The notes below the pieces were generated by a model. That model was not told where the DNA came from, did no database searches, and saw only the letters and a list, made by a program, of their open reading frames with translations. DNA of 18,353 nucleotides from a bacterium (GTDB taxonomy: Bacteria; Blakebacterota; Blakebacteria; Blakebacterales; Blakebacteraceae). Below are positions 2-15,232 of this stretch, one piece after another. Within the stretch, counting starts at the first letter, position 1. Each line of letters starts with the position of its first letter. The position numbers were made by a program, and so were the translations under genes. The DNA is taken from positions 1-18,353 of the forward strand of contig JALGWK010000030.1 in assembly GCA_025774205.1 (NCBI GenBank). Direction: 5' to 3'.

Positions 2-3000
2 GACATCAAGAGTGACCGGGTGAACGTCCTGAGTCTCGTCTTCGACCCGAACCAGCCGAGTCCCTGGCCGGCCGGTGCCTATGCCTGGAACACGACCACG
101 CTCGATCGCCGCTGGAACGGTGTGCAGCAGGCGGTGTCGGCCGGGGCTGTCGATCTCACTCAGCTCTCCTATCTGGAACTGTGGGTCAGGGGTGATCGCG
201 GGGAACTTCATATAGATCTGGGTACGATCTCGGAGGACGCCGACGGCAACGGCGATCTGAACACTGAAGACGTGCTCCGGAACGGGGTTCGGAACGGGGT
301 GACGGATTCAGATGAGGATATCGGGCTCGATGGCCTGACCGACGAAAATGAACTCAATTTCTATATCATCCATGCCGGGGATGATCCGGTCCTCTACCCG
401 ACCGTGGAAGCGAAGCGGGCACGCTTTACCGAACTCTACTCCGACCCGCTCTGGTACTGGTATCGCAGCGCCGACGATCCTGCCCACGATAACTGGCGGT
501 ATTCCAATCCCGATATTTATACCCGGGTCAACGGTTCACAGGGGAACCGGCTCGATAACGACAAGCAGAGCAAACCTGATACGGAGGATATCAACCGGAA
601 CGGCTACCTCGACCGGTCGAATAACTACATCTCCTGGATGATCGATCTCGGGCCTGACTCTCCCGACAGCCTCTATGTGGCCGGTGGGGATGTCGATCCC
701 GCCACCTGGAGTGAAGCTGACTCGTGGCGTCTCTACCGGATCCCCCTCAATGACGCGACGGGGACGGTCGGAACACCCGATCTCTCCCTGGTGGAGAGCA
801 TCCGGATGTGGATCACCGCCCCGCCCGACACCTCGGCCTTCAATGTGTCGCTGGCGACCATCGACGTGGTCGGCCACAACTGGCGGGAGAGACCGATCCA
901 GGTCGGGGATGTGACCCTCCCCCCCGAAACCGTCCGCGCGAGCGTGCGGAACACGTTCGACAACATCGGTGAGTACACGCCTCCGCCGGGGGTCAGCGGC
1001 GTCCGGGACCGGATCACCAGCCTGCTGGGCAAGGAACAGTCGCTTGCCGTCACCTTCGAGCAGCTCCCGGCCGGGGTCGAGGGCGAAGTCTTCAAGAGCA
1101 TCATCAAAGCCGAGGACTTCACTCTCTATCAGGGACTCGAGATGTTCTTCTACGGCAAACCGGCGGCACCCTGGATCGCCGGCGAGGACACAAGTCACCT
1201 GGTGGCGTTCCTCCGCTTCGGCGCTGATGAGAACAACTACTACGAGTACCGGGCCACCATCCATCCCGGGTGGGACGACCGGAACCACGTCCGGGTTGAC
1301 TTCATAGAGATCGCCGCCCTGAAGGAGGAGATGCTGGCGAGATGGGGAACGGCGACCGGGGTGCCCGACACGATCTCCGGGAACTACCGGGTCCGGGGAC
1401 GACCGAGCCTCACCAACATCCGGCGTATCTCGGTCGGAGTCGCCAACCAGCACCCGTCGCTGGCGATCGACGGCGAGATCTGGGCCGATGAACTCCGGGT
1501 CGTGAAGGTTCGGCGGGATGCCGGCACTGCCTCCCGCATGGGACTCAGGGTGCAACTGGCCGATTTCAGCACGATCGACCTGAGGATCAGCAACCGCACG
1601 GCCGACTTTCATGGTCTGAGGGAGAAGCGGGGAACGCTCAGCACCACCAGGTCCACCAACCTGCAGTGGGTAACCGCTCTTGACCGGCTGCTGCCCGCCA
1701 GGGCGGGATTCAATATCCCCCTGACCATCAACAGCCGGAGCAACCTCAGCCTGCCCAAGTACCTGCCCGGATCGGACCTCATCCTGGAGGAGGACCAGCG
1801 CTACGAACATCGAACGGCCCAGGAGGATCAGAGCATCTCGATCTCGATCCGGAAACAGGCCGAAAGCGAGGGGCTGCTGGCCAACTGGACGATCGATCGG
1901 ATGACCCTGAACGTGACCGGCAGTCGGCGGGACGGGGTCAGCCCGATCAATCCGGTCAACACCTCGAATCGGGTTCAGGGGCAGTTCACCTGGGACCTGA
2001 ATCCCCGGGTGGAGGTCGAATGGTACCTCTTCAGAAAGATCCCCCTGTTGCCCCGGTTCCTCAGGGAGACCGCCTTCAATCCCTTCCCGACCCAGCTTGA
2101 TTACTCGCTCAACGCGGTGAAACTCGACGAACGGGTCGCTGACCGGACCGGGCAGGTCAGGGAGCGGGAGGCGTTCACGGCCACGGAGCAGTTCTCTGCT
2201 GCCTTCCATCCCTTCGAACCGCTGACGGGTACCTATTCCCTGACCATCGACCGCGATCTCACCGAGGGCTGGGCGCTCAGTGACTTCAACCTCGGGAAGG
2301 AGGTGAAGCGTCGTCAGCTCTTCAACGCGATGTATTCACCGGCCACCTTCGACTGGATGACCCAGACGTACCAGTACCGAATCCAGTACCGGGAGAATAA
2401 CGATCCGAGGTTCAACACGAGAGTCACACCGGAGGGGGACCAGATCCAGCTGGGGCGGAGCGCCAACACCGTCATGGAGGGCACGGCGTCCTATACGATC
2501 ATTCCCACCCAGCTGATCGGCGCTCCGCAGACGCTTGAAGGAGCCACCGGCCTCCGCAAGCTCATCAACGACCTCAGGACGATCACCACCCGCGTAACCC
2601 CGGTCCTCATCAACCTCTCCAATGACCGGACCGGTGCCCAGCATAATCTCCTCGATCGTCCGTCCTTCGGATATCAGTTCGGATTGAAGGAGAAACCTGA
2701 CGTCCCGCGGGCCGCGGTAGTGGCAACCCAGCAGTCGACGATTCAGTCGACCCGCATGATCAACGCCAGTACCGGCCTCAGCCTTCCCCTCTCCGCGTTC
2801 ATCGATATCCGGCCGCAGTGGCGCTGGACCGACCAGTTCAGCGAGTCGAAAACATCATTCTCCTCCAGCGTGACCTGGCCCTACGTCACCCTCCGGTGGC
2901 AGGGACTCCAGCAGCTCTGGATATTCCCCGACATAACCAGTTCGATCTCGATCTCCTCCAGTTACCAGCGCACCCGTGACGCCACTGACTGGCTGCAGAC

Positions 3001-3526
3001 AGTGCTCAACGACGATCCGGTCCGGGCACCATACAGCAGTAACGACATCAAGGCGATGCGGCCGCTGCTCGGGGTGCAGATACTCTTCCTGAACGGAGTC
3101 GGAATCTCGGTGGGACGGAACTCACTCCAATCCCTCCGGGAACAGCTTTCCGGCGGCGGTAGCCAGACGCGGACGAGCAACTCGGACTATCACATAGATT
3201 TCTCCTACCGTTTCAGCGCCCCGGACGGGATCAAGATTCCTTTCTTCCGTAAACGGCTGAAGATCAACAGCACCGTGGATGCCAACCTGCGGCTGGAGCG
3301 ACGGGAGGACATGACCGAGGTACGCATCGGAATCGGGAAGGACAGAGGATTTGTACCGACCATATCAACTGCGACATGGTCCTTCAGACCCAGATTGGGT
3401 TATAGTTTCAGTGAGATGGTGGAAGGCGGACTCGACATGCGGTTCGAGAATGTCGAGGATCGGCTGATGGACCGCACGCGCAAGGTGCGCGAGGTGGCGA
3501 TCTACGTGAACCTCACATTCAGGTGA
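2..3526 (+). CDS. sprA: SprA-type outer-membrane translocon of type IX secretion, 5' partial
   Basis: The reading frame is open to the left window edge, so this is the C-terminal part (1174 codons visible) of a family usually above 2000 residues. SprA (Sov) is the very large outer-membrane beta-barrel that passes folded cargo to the surface in type IX secretion and gliding. Counting residues from the GTG at 20, family landmarks appear in order: LELWVRG and LHIDLGTISED (53-73), KPDTEDINRNGYLD (185-198), an RMWIT/IDVVGHNWRE block (262-290), EYTPPPGV followed by KEQSLAV (318-344), NYYEYRATI (406-414), RPSLTNIRRISVGV then EIWADELRV (461-494), and QLADFSTIDL (512-521). The remainder is long amphipathic beta-strand sequence ending in VNLTFR, an aromatic barrel end. 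The GTG at 20 is an internal codon, not the start. An acidic loop at 73-84 (DADGNGDLNTED) looks like an EF-hand calcium site. The glutaminyl cyclase follows at once. Family identity rests on recalled motifs and is strong; secretion function is inferred. Confidence 0.92.
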   Translation, partial: DIKSDRVNVLSLVFDPNQPSPWPAGAYAWNTTTLDRRWNGVQQAVSAGAVDLTQLSYLELWVRGDRGELHIDLGTISEDADGNGDLNTEDVLRNGVRNGVTDSDEDIGLDGLTDENELNFYIIHAGDDPVLYPTVEAKRARFTELYSDPLWYWYRSADDPAHDNWRYSNPDIYTRVNGSQGNRLDNDKQSKPDTEDINRNGYLDRSNNYISWMIDLGPDSPDSLYVAGGDVDPATWSEADSWRLYRIPLNDATGTVGTPDLSLVESIRMWITAPPDTSAFNVSLATIDVVGHNWRERPIQVGDVTLPPETVRASVRNTFDNIGEYTPPPGVSGVRDRITSLLGKEQSLAVTFEQLPAGVEGEVFKSIIKAEDFTLYQGLEMFFYGKPAAPWIAGEDTSHLVAFLRFGADENNYYEYRATIHPGWDDRNHVRVDFIEIAALKEEMLARWGTATGVPDTISGNYRVRGRPSLTNIRRISVGVANQHPSLAIDGEIWADELRVVKVRRDAGTASRMGLRVQLADFSTIDLRISNRTADFHGLREKRGTLSTTRSTNLQWVTALDRLLPARAGFNIPLTINSRSNLSLPKYLPGSDLILEEDQRYEHRTAQEDQSISISIRKQAESEGLLANWTIDRMTLNVTGSRRDGVSPINPVNTSNRVQGQFTWDLNPRVEVEWYLFRKIPLLPRFLRETAFNPFPTQLDYSLNAVKLDERVADRTGQVREREAFTATEQFSAAFHPFEPLTGTYSLTIDRDLTEGWALSDFNLGKEVKRRQLFNAMYSPATFDWMTQTYQYRIQYRENNDPRFNTRVTPEGDQIQLGRSANTVMEGTASYTIIPTQLIGAPQTLEGATGLRKLINDLRTITTRVTPVLINLSNDRTGAQHNLLDRPSFGYQFGLKEKPDVPRAAVVATQQSTIQSTRMINASTGLSLPLSAFIDIRPQWRWTDQFSESKTSFSSSVTWPYVTLRWQGLQQLWIFPDITSSISISSSYQRTRDATDWLQTVLNDDPVRAPYSSNDIKAMRPLLGVQILFLNGVGISVGRNSLQSLREQLSGGGSQTRTSNSDYHIDFSYRFSAPDGIKIPFFRKRLKINSTVDANLRLERREDMTEVRIGIGKDRGFVPTISTATWSFRPRLGYSFSEMVEGGLDMRFENVEDRLMDRTRKVREVAIYVNLTFR

Positions 3527-3572
3527 TCAGGATGGGTTACGGACCCGCTTTCTGTTCTGGCCCCTCCTGCCG

Positions 3573-4478
3573 TTGCTCCTCCCGCTCCTCGGAACCCATT
3601 GCGGTACCGGAGCCTCGGCCCGGTCCCGACCGGAGTTCGACGGTGAAGCGACCCTGGCCCTGGCGAAAACCCAGACCGATTTCGGGCCGCGGGTCCCCGG
3701 ATCCGAGGCGCACAGCCAGGCGATAAACTGGATGGAGGCGTTCCTGCAGCCGCTGGCCTCGCTGGTCCAGCGTCAACCCTTCCAGATCTGGAATCCTCAC
3801 TATGAGGAGAGCGCCGACGGGGTGAACCTCATTGCCAGTTTCTATCCCGAGAAGACCCAGCGGATCATGCTCTGCGCCCACTTCGATACGCGCCCGGAGG
3901 CGAGCGCCGAGTCCCCGCCGGTTCTCGAGCCGATCGACGGGGCCGTGGACGGCGCGGCCGGGACAGCGATCATGCTCCAGATGGCCACCATCCTCTCCGA
4001 GCATGAACCTGCCTACGGGGTCGACATCGTACTCTTCGACGGCGAGGACATCGGTCTTACGGGAGCTGGACCTGAGTACCAGCACTGGTTCCAGGGAAGC
4101 CGTCACTTCTCCAGTTTCGCCCGCCAGGCGGACTACAAGCCGTGGTTCGCGATCCTGGTCGACCTGGTCGGGGACAAACAGGCCGATTACTACCAGGAAC
4201 CGATCTCCCTGCAATACGCTCCCGATGTAGTCAGGAAGGTCTGGGATGTGGCCGCCGCACTGGGTGTCACCCAGTTCAAGCAGAGCCGCGGACAGTATGT
4301 GTACGATGACCACTGGATCCTGAACCGGGACGCGGGGATCCCATCCATCGATATCACCGAGAGTATCAGCGACTATGCCCACTGGCATACGCGGGAGGAT
4401 ACCTGGGACAAATTGAGCGCCGAGAGCCTCGCGGCGGTCGGCAAGGTCCTGGTAGGAGTGCTCTACCCGGAAGAGTGA
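3573..4478 (+). CDS. Glutaminyl-peptide cyclotransferase, M28-fold zinc enzyme, exported
   Basis: Converts N-terminal glutamine of exported proteins to pyroglutamate, outside the cytoplasm. Numbering from TTG 3573 (301 aa), the active-site set is visible: CAHFDTRPEA (101-110), zinc ligand Asp126 in GAVDGAAG, FDGED at 155-159 (catalytic Glu158, second zinc ligand position Asp159), LVDLVG with Asp197, DDH at 245-247 followed by GIPSIDI, and the WHT motif with zinc ligand His272 before REDT. This pattern separates glutaminyl cyclases from ordinary M28 aminopeptidases. The start is odd. In this frame there is a stop at 3507 and no ATG, GTG or TTG before 3573, yet the codons from about 3540 read as a signal sequence (RTRF then Trp, Leu and Pro-rich) running to a Cys at 3600. 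The only ATG nearby, 3532, is in another frame. A one-base indel near 3538, or a CTG start at 3552, would fix this. The gene sits 46 bases after sprA. Confidence 0.85.
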   Translation: MLLPLLGTHCGTGASARSRPEFDGEATLALAKTQTDFGPRVPGSEAHSQAINWMEAFLQPLASLVQRQPFQIWNPHYEESADGVNLIASFYPEKTQRIMLCAHFDTRPEASAESPPVLEPIDGAVDGAAGTAIMLQMATILSEHEPAYGVDIVLFDGEDIGLTGAGPEYQHWFQGSRHFSSFARQADYKPWFAILVDLVGDKQADYYQEPISLQYAPDVVRKVWDVAAALGVTQFKQSRGQYVYDDHWILNRDAGIPSIDITESISDYAHWHTREDTWDKLSAESLAAVGKVLVGVLYPEE

Positions 4479-4546: not shown

Positions 4547-5197
4547 ATGACCGATCGATTCACCCGGACGGAACGCCGGGTAGCCATAGCGCTTCTGGTC
4601 GTGACTGCCCTCGGCGCAGTGTGGAACACAGTTGAGGAACTGAGACCTCCGCCGCCGCCTCTGCGGCTCATCCGGGGGGCTCTGAAAGCGGACTCGACAG
4701 ACACCTTCGACCTGAACGGTCAGCCGGAGGGGATCGTCTATTCTTCCGGGGAACCGGAACTCACCGGTCCGATCGATCTCCGGACGGCCGACGAGGAGAC
4801 CCTCACCCTGCTGCCCGGGATAGGACCGGTTCTGGCCCGGCGGATCGCCGAGTGGCGGGATGCCCGTGAGGGGCCGTGGCAGGTGGATGATCTGCTTGAA
4901 GTGAGCGGTATCGGTCCGGCCAAGCTGGCTCAGCTCAGACCCCTGGTAGTGACCGGACCGACCTCGGCCGCTGAAGCGGGACCTGATTCGACCGAACCGG
5001 CAGGGCTGGAATCGACCGCGGGAGCAGGACCTGATTCGACCGGTCCGACGGCTCCGGAGCGACCCGAAAAGGGGGTAAATGGCGTTGACCATCCCCGGGG
5101 TGGTCACTATGATACCGCGCGGCTTTCCCGCGGGGCTCATCCGAGGAAAACAGGTGCGGCCCGGAAGCAACCCGGGCTCTCAGGAGGTATGTTGTGA
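4547..5197 (+). CDS. ComEA-like membrane-anchored helix-hairpin-helix DNA-binding protein
   Basis: 216 residues. A basic N-terminus (RTERR) leads into one membrane segment (about 12-28), then a proline-rich spacer (33-38) and a tandem helix-hairpin-helix unit of about 60 residues: IDLRTADEETLTLLPGIGP, then WQVDDLLEVSGIGPAKLAQL. The two GIG turns are the DNA-backbone contacts of the ComEA/ComE DNA-receptor family. ComEA proteins bind incoming double-stranded DNA during natural transformation. The anchored, non-cleaved N-terminus is inferred from the lack of a clear signal peptidase site. After the domain comes a Gly/Pro/Ser/Thr tail with a repeated AGPDST motif. The last 40 or so codons (from about 5075) look non-coding: they contain a promoter and follow an A4G5 run next to an out-of-frame TAA at 5076-5078, so the real protein may stop there. 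No Shine-Dalgarno sequence precedes ATG 4547. It overlaps the pilin-like gene by four bases (GTGA). Confidence 0.75.
   Translation: MTDRFTRTERRVAIALLVVTALGAVWNTVEELRPPPPPLRLIRGALKADSTDTFDLNGQPEGIVYSSGEPELTGPIDLRTADEETLTLLPGIGPVLARRIAEWRDAREGPWQVDDLLEVSGIGPAKLAQLRPLVVTGPTSAAEAGPDSTEPAGLESTAGAGPDSTGPTAPERPEKGVNGVDHPRGGHYDTARLSRGAHPRKTGAARKQPGLSGGML
5085..5113 (+). promoter_or_regulatory. Sigma70-type promoter for the pilin-like gene
   Basis: TTGACC (5085-5090), a 17-base spacer, then TATGAT (5108-5113); each hexamer matches five of six consensus bases. The expected transcription start is near 5120, giving a leader of about 74 bases before GTG 5194. A textbook AGGAGGT Shine-Dalgarno sequence (5182-5188) lies five bases ahead of that GTG. 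The promoter is inside the 3' end of the comEA-like frame. Not experimentally known; the call is by consensus only, and the sigma factors of this organism are unknown. Confidence 0.55.
5086..5106. repeat. Inverted repeat overlapping the promoter, operator-like
   Basis: Arms TGACCA(T)CCCC and GGGGTGGTCA are exact reverse complements except for one extra T in the left arm, giving a 21-base near-palindrome. It covers most of the -35 hexamer and the spacer of the promoter at 5085-5113, where a bound repressor would block polymerase. In read-through RNA the same bases could form a hairpin with a bulged U. There is no T-run after it, so it is not a clear terminator. Regulatory role is inference. 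Confidence 0.45.
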
Positions 5198-5700
5198 AGC
5201 GAGTAAATCAGAGGGGAACCATTCTCTGGAAAGTGGTTATTGTGGTGCTGATCGGGGCTCTGGCGGCGACGATTTTCATCCCGATGAAGCAGCGGGCTGA
5301 GACCGATTACCAGATCAAGCTGACACGTCTGCACCTGGTCGACCTGATTCTGGCCGAGAAATTCTTCTTCGACGGGCGGCAGTACTACACCGCCGACCTG
5401 GAGAGTCTGGCCAGTTATATCAACAACGTCCGCATCATGCTGGTCGATACCGTCGATATCGGGGCTATCTACGCGGTGAACGATACGACGCTCAAGCTGA
5501 CCCACATGTGGAAGATGGTGGGGCCCCGGGAGCGCATACCGCAGAACCAGATTCTCACGACCTATCGTTCACCGGTGGATTCATCCAGTTACCTCCTGAT
5601 CGTGCGGGATGATGGTATATCCATCACCGTGAAGGATCGGCATGGCATCGGCCGGATCGAGAACAATGAAGCCTCCTGGCTCAGCAGGAGGGGTGGTTGA
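5194..5700 (+). CDS. Type IV pilin-like / pseudopilin-like protein with degenerate N-terminus
   Basis: 168 residues. The N-terminus MKRVNQRG is basic and ends in Gly8, followed by a long hydrophobic helix (TILWKVVIVVLIGALAATIF, 9-28), then IP and a long amphipathic helix. This is the layout of type IV pilins and pseudopilins, whose prepilin peptidase cuts after the Gly. The DGRQYYTADLESL stretch (about 61-73) matches the position of the 'Y-P-x-x-L' turn that follows the first helix in minor pilins, and the rest is beta-rich. The usual Glu at +5 of the mature protein is replaced by Lys13, and +1 is Thr rather than Phe, which is unusual for a major pilin. Start choice: GTG 5194 has an ideal AGGAGGT five bases upstream and overlaps the preceding stop. 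Neighbours (ComEA-like before, PilM-like after) support a pilus or DNA-uptake role. Exact family not recognised. Confidence 0.6.
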   Translation: MKRVNQRGTILWKVVIVVLIGALAATIFIPMKQRAETDYQIKLTRLHLVDLILAEKFFFDGRQYYTADLESLASYINNVRIMLVDTVDIGAIYAVNDTTLKLTHMWKMVGPRERIPQNQILTTYRSPVDSSSYLLIVRDDGISITVKDRHGIGRIENNEASWLSRRGG

Positions 5701-5715
5701 TCGGCCGGCCTCGCT

Positions 5716-6687
5716 TTGCTCGGTCTAAAATTCACTGATCGCACCTTCCGCTTCGCCACTCTACTCAATCTCCAGGACGGTCTCCGGCTGACGTCGGCCG
5801 GAGCCGGCCTCATCCCTTTTACATCGATGGACCGGGGCGTGATCCGTCCTGATGGTATCGCCGCCCTGATCGAAGTGCTCGACCGCTCACTCGACCGTGA
5901 AGGTGTGGAGCGGAGCGGAGCAGCAGTCGTGCTCGACGGCCGGATCATCGTCAGGACTCTCTTTCCCCTGCAGATCGGGACCTTCGCCGGGGACGACGAC
6001 CTCCGGGCGCGGGTGGAGTGGGAGATCGGGACCCGCTATGGAGGAGTGGATCCCGTTACCGATCTCCATGTCGACTGGACCCGACGGCAGGGCCCCGACG
6101 GGACTCAGGTGGTGGACGCCTGGGGCATCCCCCGGGCGATCATGGAACAGTACCGCAAGGTGATCGAAGGTGTCGGCTGTCAGGTGGTCGGCTGGGACTG
6201 TGATCCCTGGGCCATGACCCGGTTCGTCCGTATCTGCGCCGCCGGAGCGGATGAGGCAACGATCGCGGCGGTCCATGTGGAGGCTGAATCACTCGAGATC
6301 GCCCTGATCCGGGGTGAACATTCCGTGGGAACGACCTCCCTGCGCCGGGATGTCGCGAACGGCTCCGACAAACAGTGGGACTCAGATGAACCGGACGCAG
6401 TGGCAACTGAGATCCACCGTTCCCTCGAGGTGCTGAGCAGGCGGTGGTTGCCAATCGACCCGGACACAGGAGACCAGGTGGAGAGAGTCTGGTTCACCGG
6501 TTCGGTCGAGAATTCCGATTCCCTGCTGGCGGCCCTGGTCAGAACCTTGAAGACGAGGGTTGAGATGATCGATATCACAGCCCGGATCGGGATCGATGAA
6601 GCGCTGGCGTCGAGTCCCCTCATCGAGAGTAATCTGGGTTCATTCGCGCTCTGTATCGGAGGCGCGCTGGCTGACGTTCGCCCATGA
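5716..6687 (+). CDS. PilM-like actin-fold pilus assembly protein
   Basis: 323 residues. It begins LGLKFTDRTFRFATLL, resembling the opening 'GLDIGdrsvR' beta-hairpin of actin-fold PilM/GspL proteins. A central block VEWEIGTRYGGVDPVTDLHVDW followed by VDAWGIPRAIMEQYRKVIEG and CDPWAMTRF matches the pattern of the PilM middle domain, and the C-terminal part has alternating strands with a GSVENSDSLL segment. PilM is a cytoplasmic ATP-binding ring protein that links to PilN/PilO in type IV pili; GspL does the same job in type II secretion. No PilN, PilO or PilQ gene follows; rsmD does. The TTG start at 5716 has no Shine-Dalgarno sequence. A good AGGAGGGG (5686-5693) instead precedes TTG 5697, which overlaps the upstream stop but reads in another frame and soon ends. 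The true start is therefore uncertain and may hide a one-base indel. Assignment is moderate, based on fold-level resemblance and context. Confidence 0.5.
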   Translation: MLGLKFTDRTFRFATLLNLQDGLRLTSAGAGLIPFTSMDRGVIRPDGIAALIEVLDRSLDREGVERSGAAVVLDGRIIVRTLFPLQIGTFAGDDDLRARVEWEIGTRYGGVDPVTDLHVDWTRRQGPDGTQVVDAWGIPRAIMEQYRKVIEGVGCQVVGWDCDPWAMTRFVRICAAGADEATIAAVHVEAESLEIALIRGEHSVGTTSLRRDVANGSDKQWDSDEPDAVATEIHRSLEVLSRRWLPIDPDTGDQVERVWFTGSVENSDSLLAALVRTLKTRVEMIDITARIGIDEALASSPLIESNLGSFALCIGGALADVRP

Positions 6688-13915: not shown

Positions 13916-15232
13916 ATGAACGAGTCGAAAAGGACATTGATCGGCGCCGCGATCTGCGTTCTGGCGGTAGCCCCCCTGTCGGCCGGAGCCCAGACCGATC
14001 CGGTCATGACCCCGCCTGACACGCTCAGGGGAACGATCCATACCGTCCAGAAGGGCGATACACTGTGGGATCTCAGCCAGCTCTATCTGAGTAATGCCTG
14101 GCTCTGGCCGTCGGTTCACAAGGCCAACGAAGAGACGATCGCCAACCCGCCGCATCTGATCTATCCGGGACAGAGGATATGGTTCCCGATCGGCGGGGGG
14201 ACACCGGTGGTCCTCTCATTCGAGGAGGTGTGGCCCGACCGGGAGACCGGTATCATCGACGCAGCCCGGCAGGCAGTTCAGATACCCCTGCCCGGTTCCG
14301 ACCCGGTGGATACCCTGGGTGTGATTCCGGGCGAGATCCCGGGTGAGATCCCGGTGGATACCCTGGGTGTAACCCCGGGCGAGATCCCGGGCGAGACCCC
14401 TGTGGATACCCTGGGTGTGATCCCGGGCGAGATCCCGGGTGAGATTCCGGGCGCGACCCCTGATACGCTCGCCACCGGCGAACCGGGTGACATCTCGACC
14501 GGCTTCATCGGCTCTGAAAAGCGGTTCTATCCCCTCGCAACACGGAATGCCGTCCTGGCCGCCGGCTTTCTGGGGAATCCGAGCGGATGGCCTCAGGGTG
14601 TGATCATCGGTGGTGAGGGCACTGACCTGAACCTGTCACTCTATTCCCAGGTCTTTTTGAACCTGGGTGAAGATGTCACGCAGCCCGGGGAACTCTACAT
14701 CGTGGTAGAGCCGGGACCGCAGGTCCGCCATCCCGTATGGGGGAACCGGCTGGGCAGGAAGATAAGAATCAAGGGGATCATCCAGATCGTGGACACCTCC
14801 GGGCGCACGAGCCAGGGAGTGCTGGTCGCCGTATTCGACGCGGTCAGTCGCAGGGACCGGGTAATTCCGGCTCCTGAAGCCGACGCCCGGCCATGGAAGG
14901 AATTCATCCCTGTCCAGGAGGGGCGCACCGGATTCGTCGTGGCCAGGGCGAATGCCGACGGGAATATGCATCCCTATGACATGCTCTTCATCGATGGAGG
15001 AGCGGAGGAAGGCATTCAGATAGGGGATCTATATGTGCTGAAGCGCCCCCGGAACGAACGGGGCCGACTCCGTTTCTTCGAGGATGAGGTCGCCAGGGCT
15101 GTCGTGATCGCCGTACAGGAAGAGACCGCCACGGCCATGATTTTAACGGTGAAGGATTCCGTGATCGGAGCCGGCGAGCGGGTGACACTCATCGGACGGT
15201 CGGTGTTTGCGTATCCGGGGGAGGGGGGGTGA
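13916..15232 (+). CDS. Secreted LysM peptidoglycan-binding protein with PGE-rich repeat
   Basis: 438 residues. Signal peptide: NESKR n-region, hydrophobic core 8-22, and an A-x-A site (SAGA) predicting cleavage after Ala25, leaving Gln26 as the mature first residue. One LysM domain follows (about 41-90: IHTVQKGDTLWDLSQLYL ... NPPHLIYPGQRIWFP), which binds peptidoglycan glycan strands. Residues 130-177 are three 16-residue repeats of the type VDTLGVIPGEIPGEIP, a flexible linker. The C-terminal 250 residues are beta-rich with LYIVVEPG (about 260) and MLFIDGGAEEGIQIGDLYVL, a segment seen in many LysM envelope proteins. No enzyme motif is visible. I start at ATG 13916 with GAGGTG nine bases upstream; GTG 13904 with GGAGGT is an alternative that adds four residues. 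The gene has its own promoter-like sequence and ends before a terminator, so it is probably a single-gene unit. Role: periplasmic or wall-associated, function unknown. Confidence 0.85.
   Translation: MNESKRTLIGAAICVLAVAPLSAGAQTDPVMTPPDTLRGTIHTVQKGDTLWDLSQLYLSNAWLWPSVHKANEETIANPPHLIYPGQRIWFPIGGGTPVVLSFEEVWPDRETGIIDAARQAVQIPLPGSDPVDTLGVIPGEIPGEIPVDTLGVTPGEIPGETPVDTLGVIPGEIPGEIPGATPDTLATGEPGDISTGFIGSEKRFYPLATRNAVLAAGFLGNPSGWPQGVIIGGEGTDLNLSLYSQVFLNLGEDVTQPGELYIVVEPGPQVRHPVWGNRLGRKIRIKGIIQIVDTSGRTSQGVLVAVFDAVSRRDRVIPAPEADARPWKEFIPVQEGRTGFVVARANADGNMHPYDMLFIDGGAEEGIQIGDLYVLKRPRNERGRLRFFEDEVARAVVIAVQEETATAMILTVKDSVIGAGERVTLIGRSVFAYPGEGG
14303..14446 (+). repeat. Three tandem 48-bp units coding PGE-rich repeats
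   Basis: Units start at 14303, 14351 and 14399 with exactly 48 bases between starts, each coding PVDTLGV(I/T)PGEIPGE(I/T). A decayed fourth unit (GATPDTLA) follows. Differences between units are a few bases. Inside each unit PGE repeats with a 9-base period. Such arrays change copy number by slippage without shifting the frame. Confidence 0.95.

Follow-up and report, generated by a model that had tools for sequence, protein, structure and literature searches.

A glutaminyl cyclase gene directly behind sprA and a Q-rule-like signature in a bacterial lineage apparently outside Bacteroidota

Introduction

Type II glutaminyl cyclases (QC), the Q-rule and the type IX secretion system (T9SS) have all been described already. 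Among the enzymes, PgQC of P. gingivalis (PG2157; 6QQL) and TfQC of T. forsythia (6QRO) have an Asp as zinc ligand that is specific to bacteroidal QCs, and the roles assigned below to active-site residues follow the same source (PMC7948796). The P. gingivalis QC is essential through its activity, and its favoured role is the stability of exported proteins, which would be protected by their pyroglutamate (PMC10653852). The Q-rule, the preference for Gln at position +1 of signal peptidase I substrates, has been stated for Bacteroidetes and not for the FCB group as a whole, Ignavibacterium and Chloroherpeton being among its scattered outliers; with SignalP, a mean of 71% Gln at +1 has been published for Bacteroidetes (Bochtler et al., 2018; PMC5837995). 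That the rule occurs together with type IX secretion was noted earlier and then left aside, on the view that no mechanism links the two.

In the window described here (the whole stretch of 18,353 nucleotides that was analysed), a QC gene lies directly behind the 3' end of sprA. Judging by the papers searched, two points are new: that an apparent sprA–QC operon is widely conserved outside Bacteroidota, and that a Q-rule probably operates in the lineage of the window. No such operon or linkage was found in these papers, those on the T9SS included, which left most subscription papers outside, so that a prior mention is possible; the papers on sprA together with glutaminyl cyclase were unrelated only, among the matches listed. 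The window genome comprises 3.09 Mb in 527 contigs and is 86% complete. Its kin among the genomes searched are one in the genus and two more in the family, and because the next ones share the domain only, the lineage apparently stands outside Bacteroidota, probably as a small FCB-type phylum. A scan of the named genomes gave no match above 48% identity for it.

The sprA–QC locus

The features of the locus, all on the plus strand, are as follows.

2–3526: 3' part of sprA/sov, coding for the SprA outer-membrane translocon of the T9SS (TIGR04189, E 5.8e-87; PF14349, E 1.1e-27)
3532–4478: type II glutaminyl cyclase, whose frame is coding at least from 3537 onwards and whose probable start, the ATG at 3532, is one base off frame
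3600–3602: Cys codon of a lipoprotein-like, non-canonical lipobox (LLGTHC), from alignment with G001–G003, the other genomes of the family
3948–3950: zinc ligand Asp D138, equivalent to PgQC D149 and human D159, kept in 150/151 QCs
4044–4049: catalytic Glu E170 and zinc ligand Asp D171, equivalent to human E201/E202, with D171 equivalent to PgQC D183
4161–4163: catalytic-network Asp D209, equivalent to human D248
4308–4310: catalytic-network Asp D258, equivalent to human D305
4383–4388: active-site Trp W283 and zinc ligand His H284, equivalent to PgQC W298–H299
4547–6687: three genes behind QC, for a ComEA-like HHH protein, a pilin-like protein and an unassigned protein, in an order kept in the family genomes and not elsewhere

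The sprA gene is cut by the contig end, and what remains at 2–3526 is the C-terminal part of SprA/Sov; a further SprA fragment of the genome lies on contig C22, and the 5' part of the gene is on another contig. With SprA, PorV-family and CTD cargo matches all present, the T9SS is real in the window family, as in the described SprA/Sov translocon with PorV, from which the locus differs in that sprA has QC as its apparent operon partner. PgQC instead comes first in an operon of three genes, the others being PG_2158 and hemG (PMC10653852).

The protein encoded at 3537–4478 is a type II (animal-type, bacteroidal-like) QC with the full set of zinc and catalytic residues (numbered from nucleotide 3537). 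A sequence-only reading of this DNA had claimed a complete QC active site directly after sprA, and this is borne out by D138, D171 and H284, together with E170, D209, D258 and W283, behind a gene that matches TIGR04189. The Pfam match is Peptidase_M28 (PF04389, E 4.8e-32), and the best PDB matches are the QCs of T. forsythia (E 5e-50) and P. gingivalis (E 1.4e-47). An AlphaFold2 model with a mean pLDDT of 89.9 ranks 6QRO at the top (TM 0.84–0.90), and both sequence and fold are closest to characterised QCs, not to aminopeptidases. The window protein shares with PgQC and TfQC the fold, the single-zinc Asp/Asp/His set, the catalytic Glu and Asp, equivalents of Trp193 and Trp298 (W184 and W283) and an N-terminal Cys that is a candidate lipid anchor, at 34–36% identity over the aligned parts. 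The residue set D-E-D-D-D-H is intact in 141 of 151 QCs, the exceptions being mostly D/E swaps at one zinc ligand, and D138 is invariant in both QC alignments (A1 and A2). On the side of differences, PgAsp132 is replaced by Ser, since the Arg-Pro-x-x-Asp loop (R128, P129 and D132 in PgQC) reads RPEAS in the window and RPVAD in G002, so that the window protein keeps Arg and Pro without the Asp; TESISDY stands where distant relatives have an IDFDY-type loop; and the lipobox is non-canonical (GTHC in the window; GTYC, AAGC and AVHC in G001, G002 and G003), although the enzyme is probably lipid-anchored. Only one QC was found in the window genome, and no plant-type QC; on the QC tree it falls, with weak support, near those of Ignavibacteriota, KSB1 and Bacteroidota. 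By family and active site the protein is a QC, and it would be expected to have cyclase activity.

The frame 3510–4478 has no internal stop, and its first part, 3510–3526, belongs to sprA and not to QC, which corrects the earlier QC coordinates. No ATG or GTG start was found in the QC frame. An ATG at 3532 is one base off frame, behind a GGG run (region 3532–3545), while in the sister genome G001 the QC ATG is in frame at the corresponding place, 5 bases past the sprA stop; the simplest reading is therefore likely a one-base indel at the QC start, by assembly error or as a real frameshift. The alternative start, TTG at 3573, would leave only a stub of the signal peptide.

Conservation of the gene pair

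Linkage of the two genes extends far beyond the window. The earlier reading had named an adjacency confined to this contig as a ground for refutation, and on this ground it is not refuted. It was found in all four genomes of the window family. Animal-type QC occurs in 92 and SprA in 107 of 386 genomes, and 53 have both (odds ratio 6.0, p 2.8e-12); 36 of these 53, belonging to 23 families as counted by the family codes of the search tool, have sprA immediately before QC in the same orientation, and G174 is a probable 37th case. Such an adjacency is not due to chance. The named genomes with the pair belong to KSB1, Calditrichota, Zixibacteria, Gemmatimonadota and Fidelibacterota (Neomarinimicrobiota), with one MAG labelled Bacteroidota; the Bacteroidota loci gave 0 SprA matches within the fetched flanks, and no true Bacteroidota locus had the pair. 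The sprA stop and the possible QC starts lie close together, and the spacings include overlaps of −4 or −1 nt in Gemmatimonadota, Zixibacteria, Fidelibacterota and the sister genome of the window. Among 83 genomes with strong SprA matches, 49 have animal-type QC; plant-type QC is present in about 17 of the remaining 34, and lay beside sprA in none of the cases checked by comparing contigs and coordinates. The QCs of L039 and L042, on contigs labelled Acidobacteriota and Aminicenantes, cluster with Calditrichota QCs, for which binning errors or transfer are possible.

The genes flanking the pair vary between lineages. Zixibacteria have MurB before the pair, and after it S49/M16 peptidases or a ComEA-like gene; one Fidelibacterota genome has Ham1 and an endonuclease/phosphatase-family gene around the pair; and a ComEA-like gene is beside it in the window family, where the following pilin-like and 323-aa proteins (5194–6687), conserved in order, have no Pfam or NCBIfam match. 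The run of genes is longer in Calditrichota, KSB1 and other Fidelibacterota, namely sprA–QC–prmA (or Ppx/GppA)–choice-of-anchor X protein–BNR protein with a T9SS-like C-terminal domain–two PorV/PorQ-family genes, some parts of which are missing or replaced in some loci.

L046 (8578–14826), L062 (6027–12200), L077, L071 and L048: extended-operon loci of Calditrichota, Fidelibacterota and KSB1

The CTD protein of these runs has a Gln just past the likely end of its signal peptide in Calditrichota, KSB1 and Fidelibacterota loci.

Gln at position +1 of exported proteins

The window itself encodes one putative substrate.

13916–15232, plus strand: LysM protein (PF01476) with a Sec signal peptide, predicted cut between MNESKRTLIGAAICVLAVAPLSAGA and QTDP, orthologues in G001–G003
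13991–13993, plus strand: Gln codon at +1 of the LysM protein, at the predicted cleavage site

That this protein would have Gln as mature residue 1 had been proposed from the sequence, and the cleavage predictor agrees, placing the cut between SAGA and QTDP. Between its LysM domain and its C-terminal part there is a short repeat region (14280–14620, VDTLGVIPGEIPGEIP units), on either side of which the ortholog matches from G001–G003 stop.

Signal peptides were predicted with a home-made tool in which residue +1 is excluded from site scoring; strict counts require Gln at the predicted site, and relaxed counts let the site slide a few residues. A first predictor placed sites too early (L at +1) and was replaced by the version that ignores +1, with the relaxed count added. 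The family sample, a small one enriched for PorV and M28 loci, consists of 32 Sec/SPI proteins from four MAGs, and Gln was at +1 in 15/32 (strict) and 21/32 (relaxed). With the same predictor the values were 28/69 and 33/69 for Bacteroidota loci, and 3/47 and 4/47 for four genomes without QC, so that Gln at +1 is about seven times as frequent in the window family as in the latter (Fisher 1e-7 on relaxed counts). Because the Bacteroidota count falls below the published 71%, the predictor underestimates Gln at +1. In G346, which carries the pair, the counts were 13/25 and 18/25; G138, with QC and without SprA, gave 4/22, and G143, with SprA and without QC, gave 3/12. In the sample from the window genome, Gln was at +1 in 8/23, above later positions (p 2.7e-4), and inspection by eye showed that the clear signal peptides in the family, that of the LysM protein included, mostly end before Gln. 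The export-and-cap system that the sequence-only reading had inferred from the enzyme and one substrate thus gains statistical support, at a level about that of Bacteroidota, and is not refuted on the ground which that reading had named, a Gln at +1 no commoner than background. As Bochtler et al. (2018; PMC5837995) described for Bacteroidetes, a high share of Gln at +1 goes with one QC, predicted to be periplasmic, and these sequence statistics support a Bacteroidetes-like Q-rule in a lineage that is apparently outside Bacteroidota.

Capping and type IX secretion

The pair and a general Q-rule do not always go together. In G157 and G159 the sprA–QC pair is present and the QC active site is intact, yet Gln is at +1 in only 1/23 and 1/20 of their random exported proteins; for this reason sprA linkage and a general Q-rule are separable, and the idea that adjacency predicts a Q-rule was rejected. 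These observations concern the loci L249–L268, L298 and L299 of the two genomes. At PorV-family loci of the two genomes, Gln is at +1 in 10/29 vs 2/43 elsewhere (p 0.001), an excess that is only a hint because one PorV-family protein of G009, which has no QC, also has Gln after its signal peptide. A further idea, that in such genomes Gln is found on T9SS cargo only, was rejected for G157, whose CTD cargo does not start with Gln.

The explanation that we favour, with a probability of roughly 0.7, is a periplasmic single-zinc type II QC that caps Gln-starting exported proteins and derives from an old sprA–QC operon, in which linkage serves co-expression and not a sorting signal. Signal peptidase I would cut Sec substrates and expose an N-terminal Gln, which the membrane-anchored QC would cyclise to pyroglutamate at the periplasmic face, and the pyroglutamate would block aminopeptidases and so protect the exported proteins. 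Substrates would be the many Gln-starting exported proteins of the window genome, including the LysM protein and PorV-family proteins. The gene would be the second of an old operon common to many FCB-group phyla, later split in Bacteroidota, Ignavibacteriota and Balneolota/Rhodothermota. Being linked to sprA most likely lets QC be expressed together with the type IX translocon and so be supplied when this system, a large export load with components and cargo that would be major exported clients, is made.

Two alternatives touch the basis of this explanation, and both appear very improbable. That the window protein is an M28 aminopeptidase instead of a cyclase accords with its Pfam assignment and with some 20 further M28 proteins in the genome, and is hard to reconcile with top sequence and fold matches that are characterised QCs, with the bacteroidal QC-type zinc ligand Asp and with a Trp beside the His ligand where aminopeptidases have Tyr (PMC7948796). 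That the Gln at +1 stems from composition or from a bias of the predictor, without any Q-rule, is only slightly less remote: the sample is small, the predictor crude and Gln abundant in the N-termini examined, but site scoring ignores +1, Gln at +1 in the window genome exceeds that at later positions, and the four genomes without QC reach only 3/47.

A more serious alternative, though still one that we consider unlikely, is that QC is a general periplasmic capping enzyme whose linkage to sprA is an ancestral relic of gene order without functional meaning. It fits with true Bacteroidota, which hold QC and the Q-rule without the linkage, with the P. gingivalis Gln changes, which gave no general T9SS export defect (PMC5837995), and with prmA, a gene unrelated to secretion that also rides in some of these operons; however, the pair has been kept in at least six phylum-level groups while other neighbours changed, start and stop codons overlap or touch, and the two genes co-occur strongly. 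The opposite alternative, that across the phyla of the FCB group QC is an ancestral accessory serving the type IX translocon specifically, seems more doubtful again. The T9SS would then require pyroglutamate on translocon, PorV-like or operon CTD proteins (or cargo) to assemble or to work, and the genome-wide Q-rule, in Bacteroidota as in the window lineage, would be a later spread. The layout from sprA and QC to the CTD and PorV genes, the Gln of the operon CTD protein and the PorV-locus excess in G157 and G159 speak for it, whereas the G157 cargo, the QC-less G009 protein and the frequent Gln on non-T9SS proteins of the window family speak against it.

Of the sequence-only reading, the export-and-cap system and a meaningful adjacency to sprA are thus supported, whereas the coupling of capping to type IX secretion at which it had hinted is only suggested, by operon structure and co-occurrence. 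The pair without a general Q-rule in G157 and G159, the lack of plant-type QC beside sprA in the cases checked and the unlinked Q-rule of Bacteroidota count against such a coupling, and the P. gingivalis results in the literature speak against pyroglutamate being a sorting signal for the T9SS. An apparent sprA–QC operon in at least six phylum-level groups, with a probable Q-rule in one of them, reopens the question of how the Q-rule relates to the T9SS and suggests that the linkage between QC and the translocon predates its loss in Bacteroidota. Operon carriers without a general Q-rule are natural test cases, which should show the substrates most in need of capping.

Exported peptidases of the window genome

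In the window genome, 22 places listed correspond to about 20 M28 peptidase genes in 3.1 Mb. Several of these proteins have a Sec signal peptide that ends before Gln, consistent with a heavy load of exported aminopeptidases.
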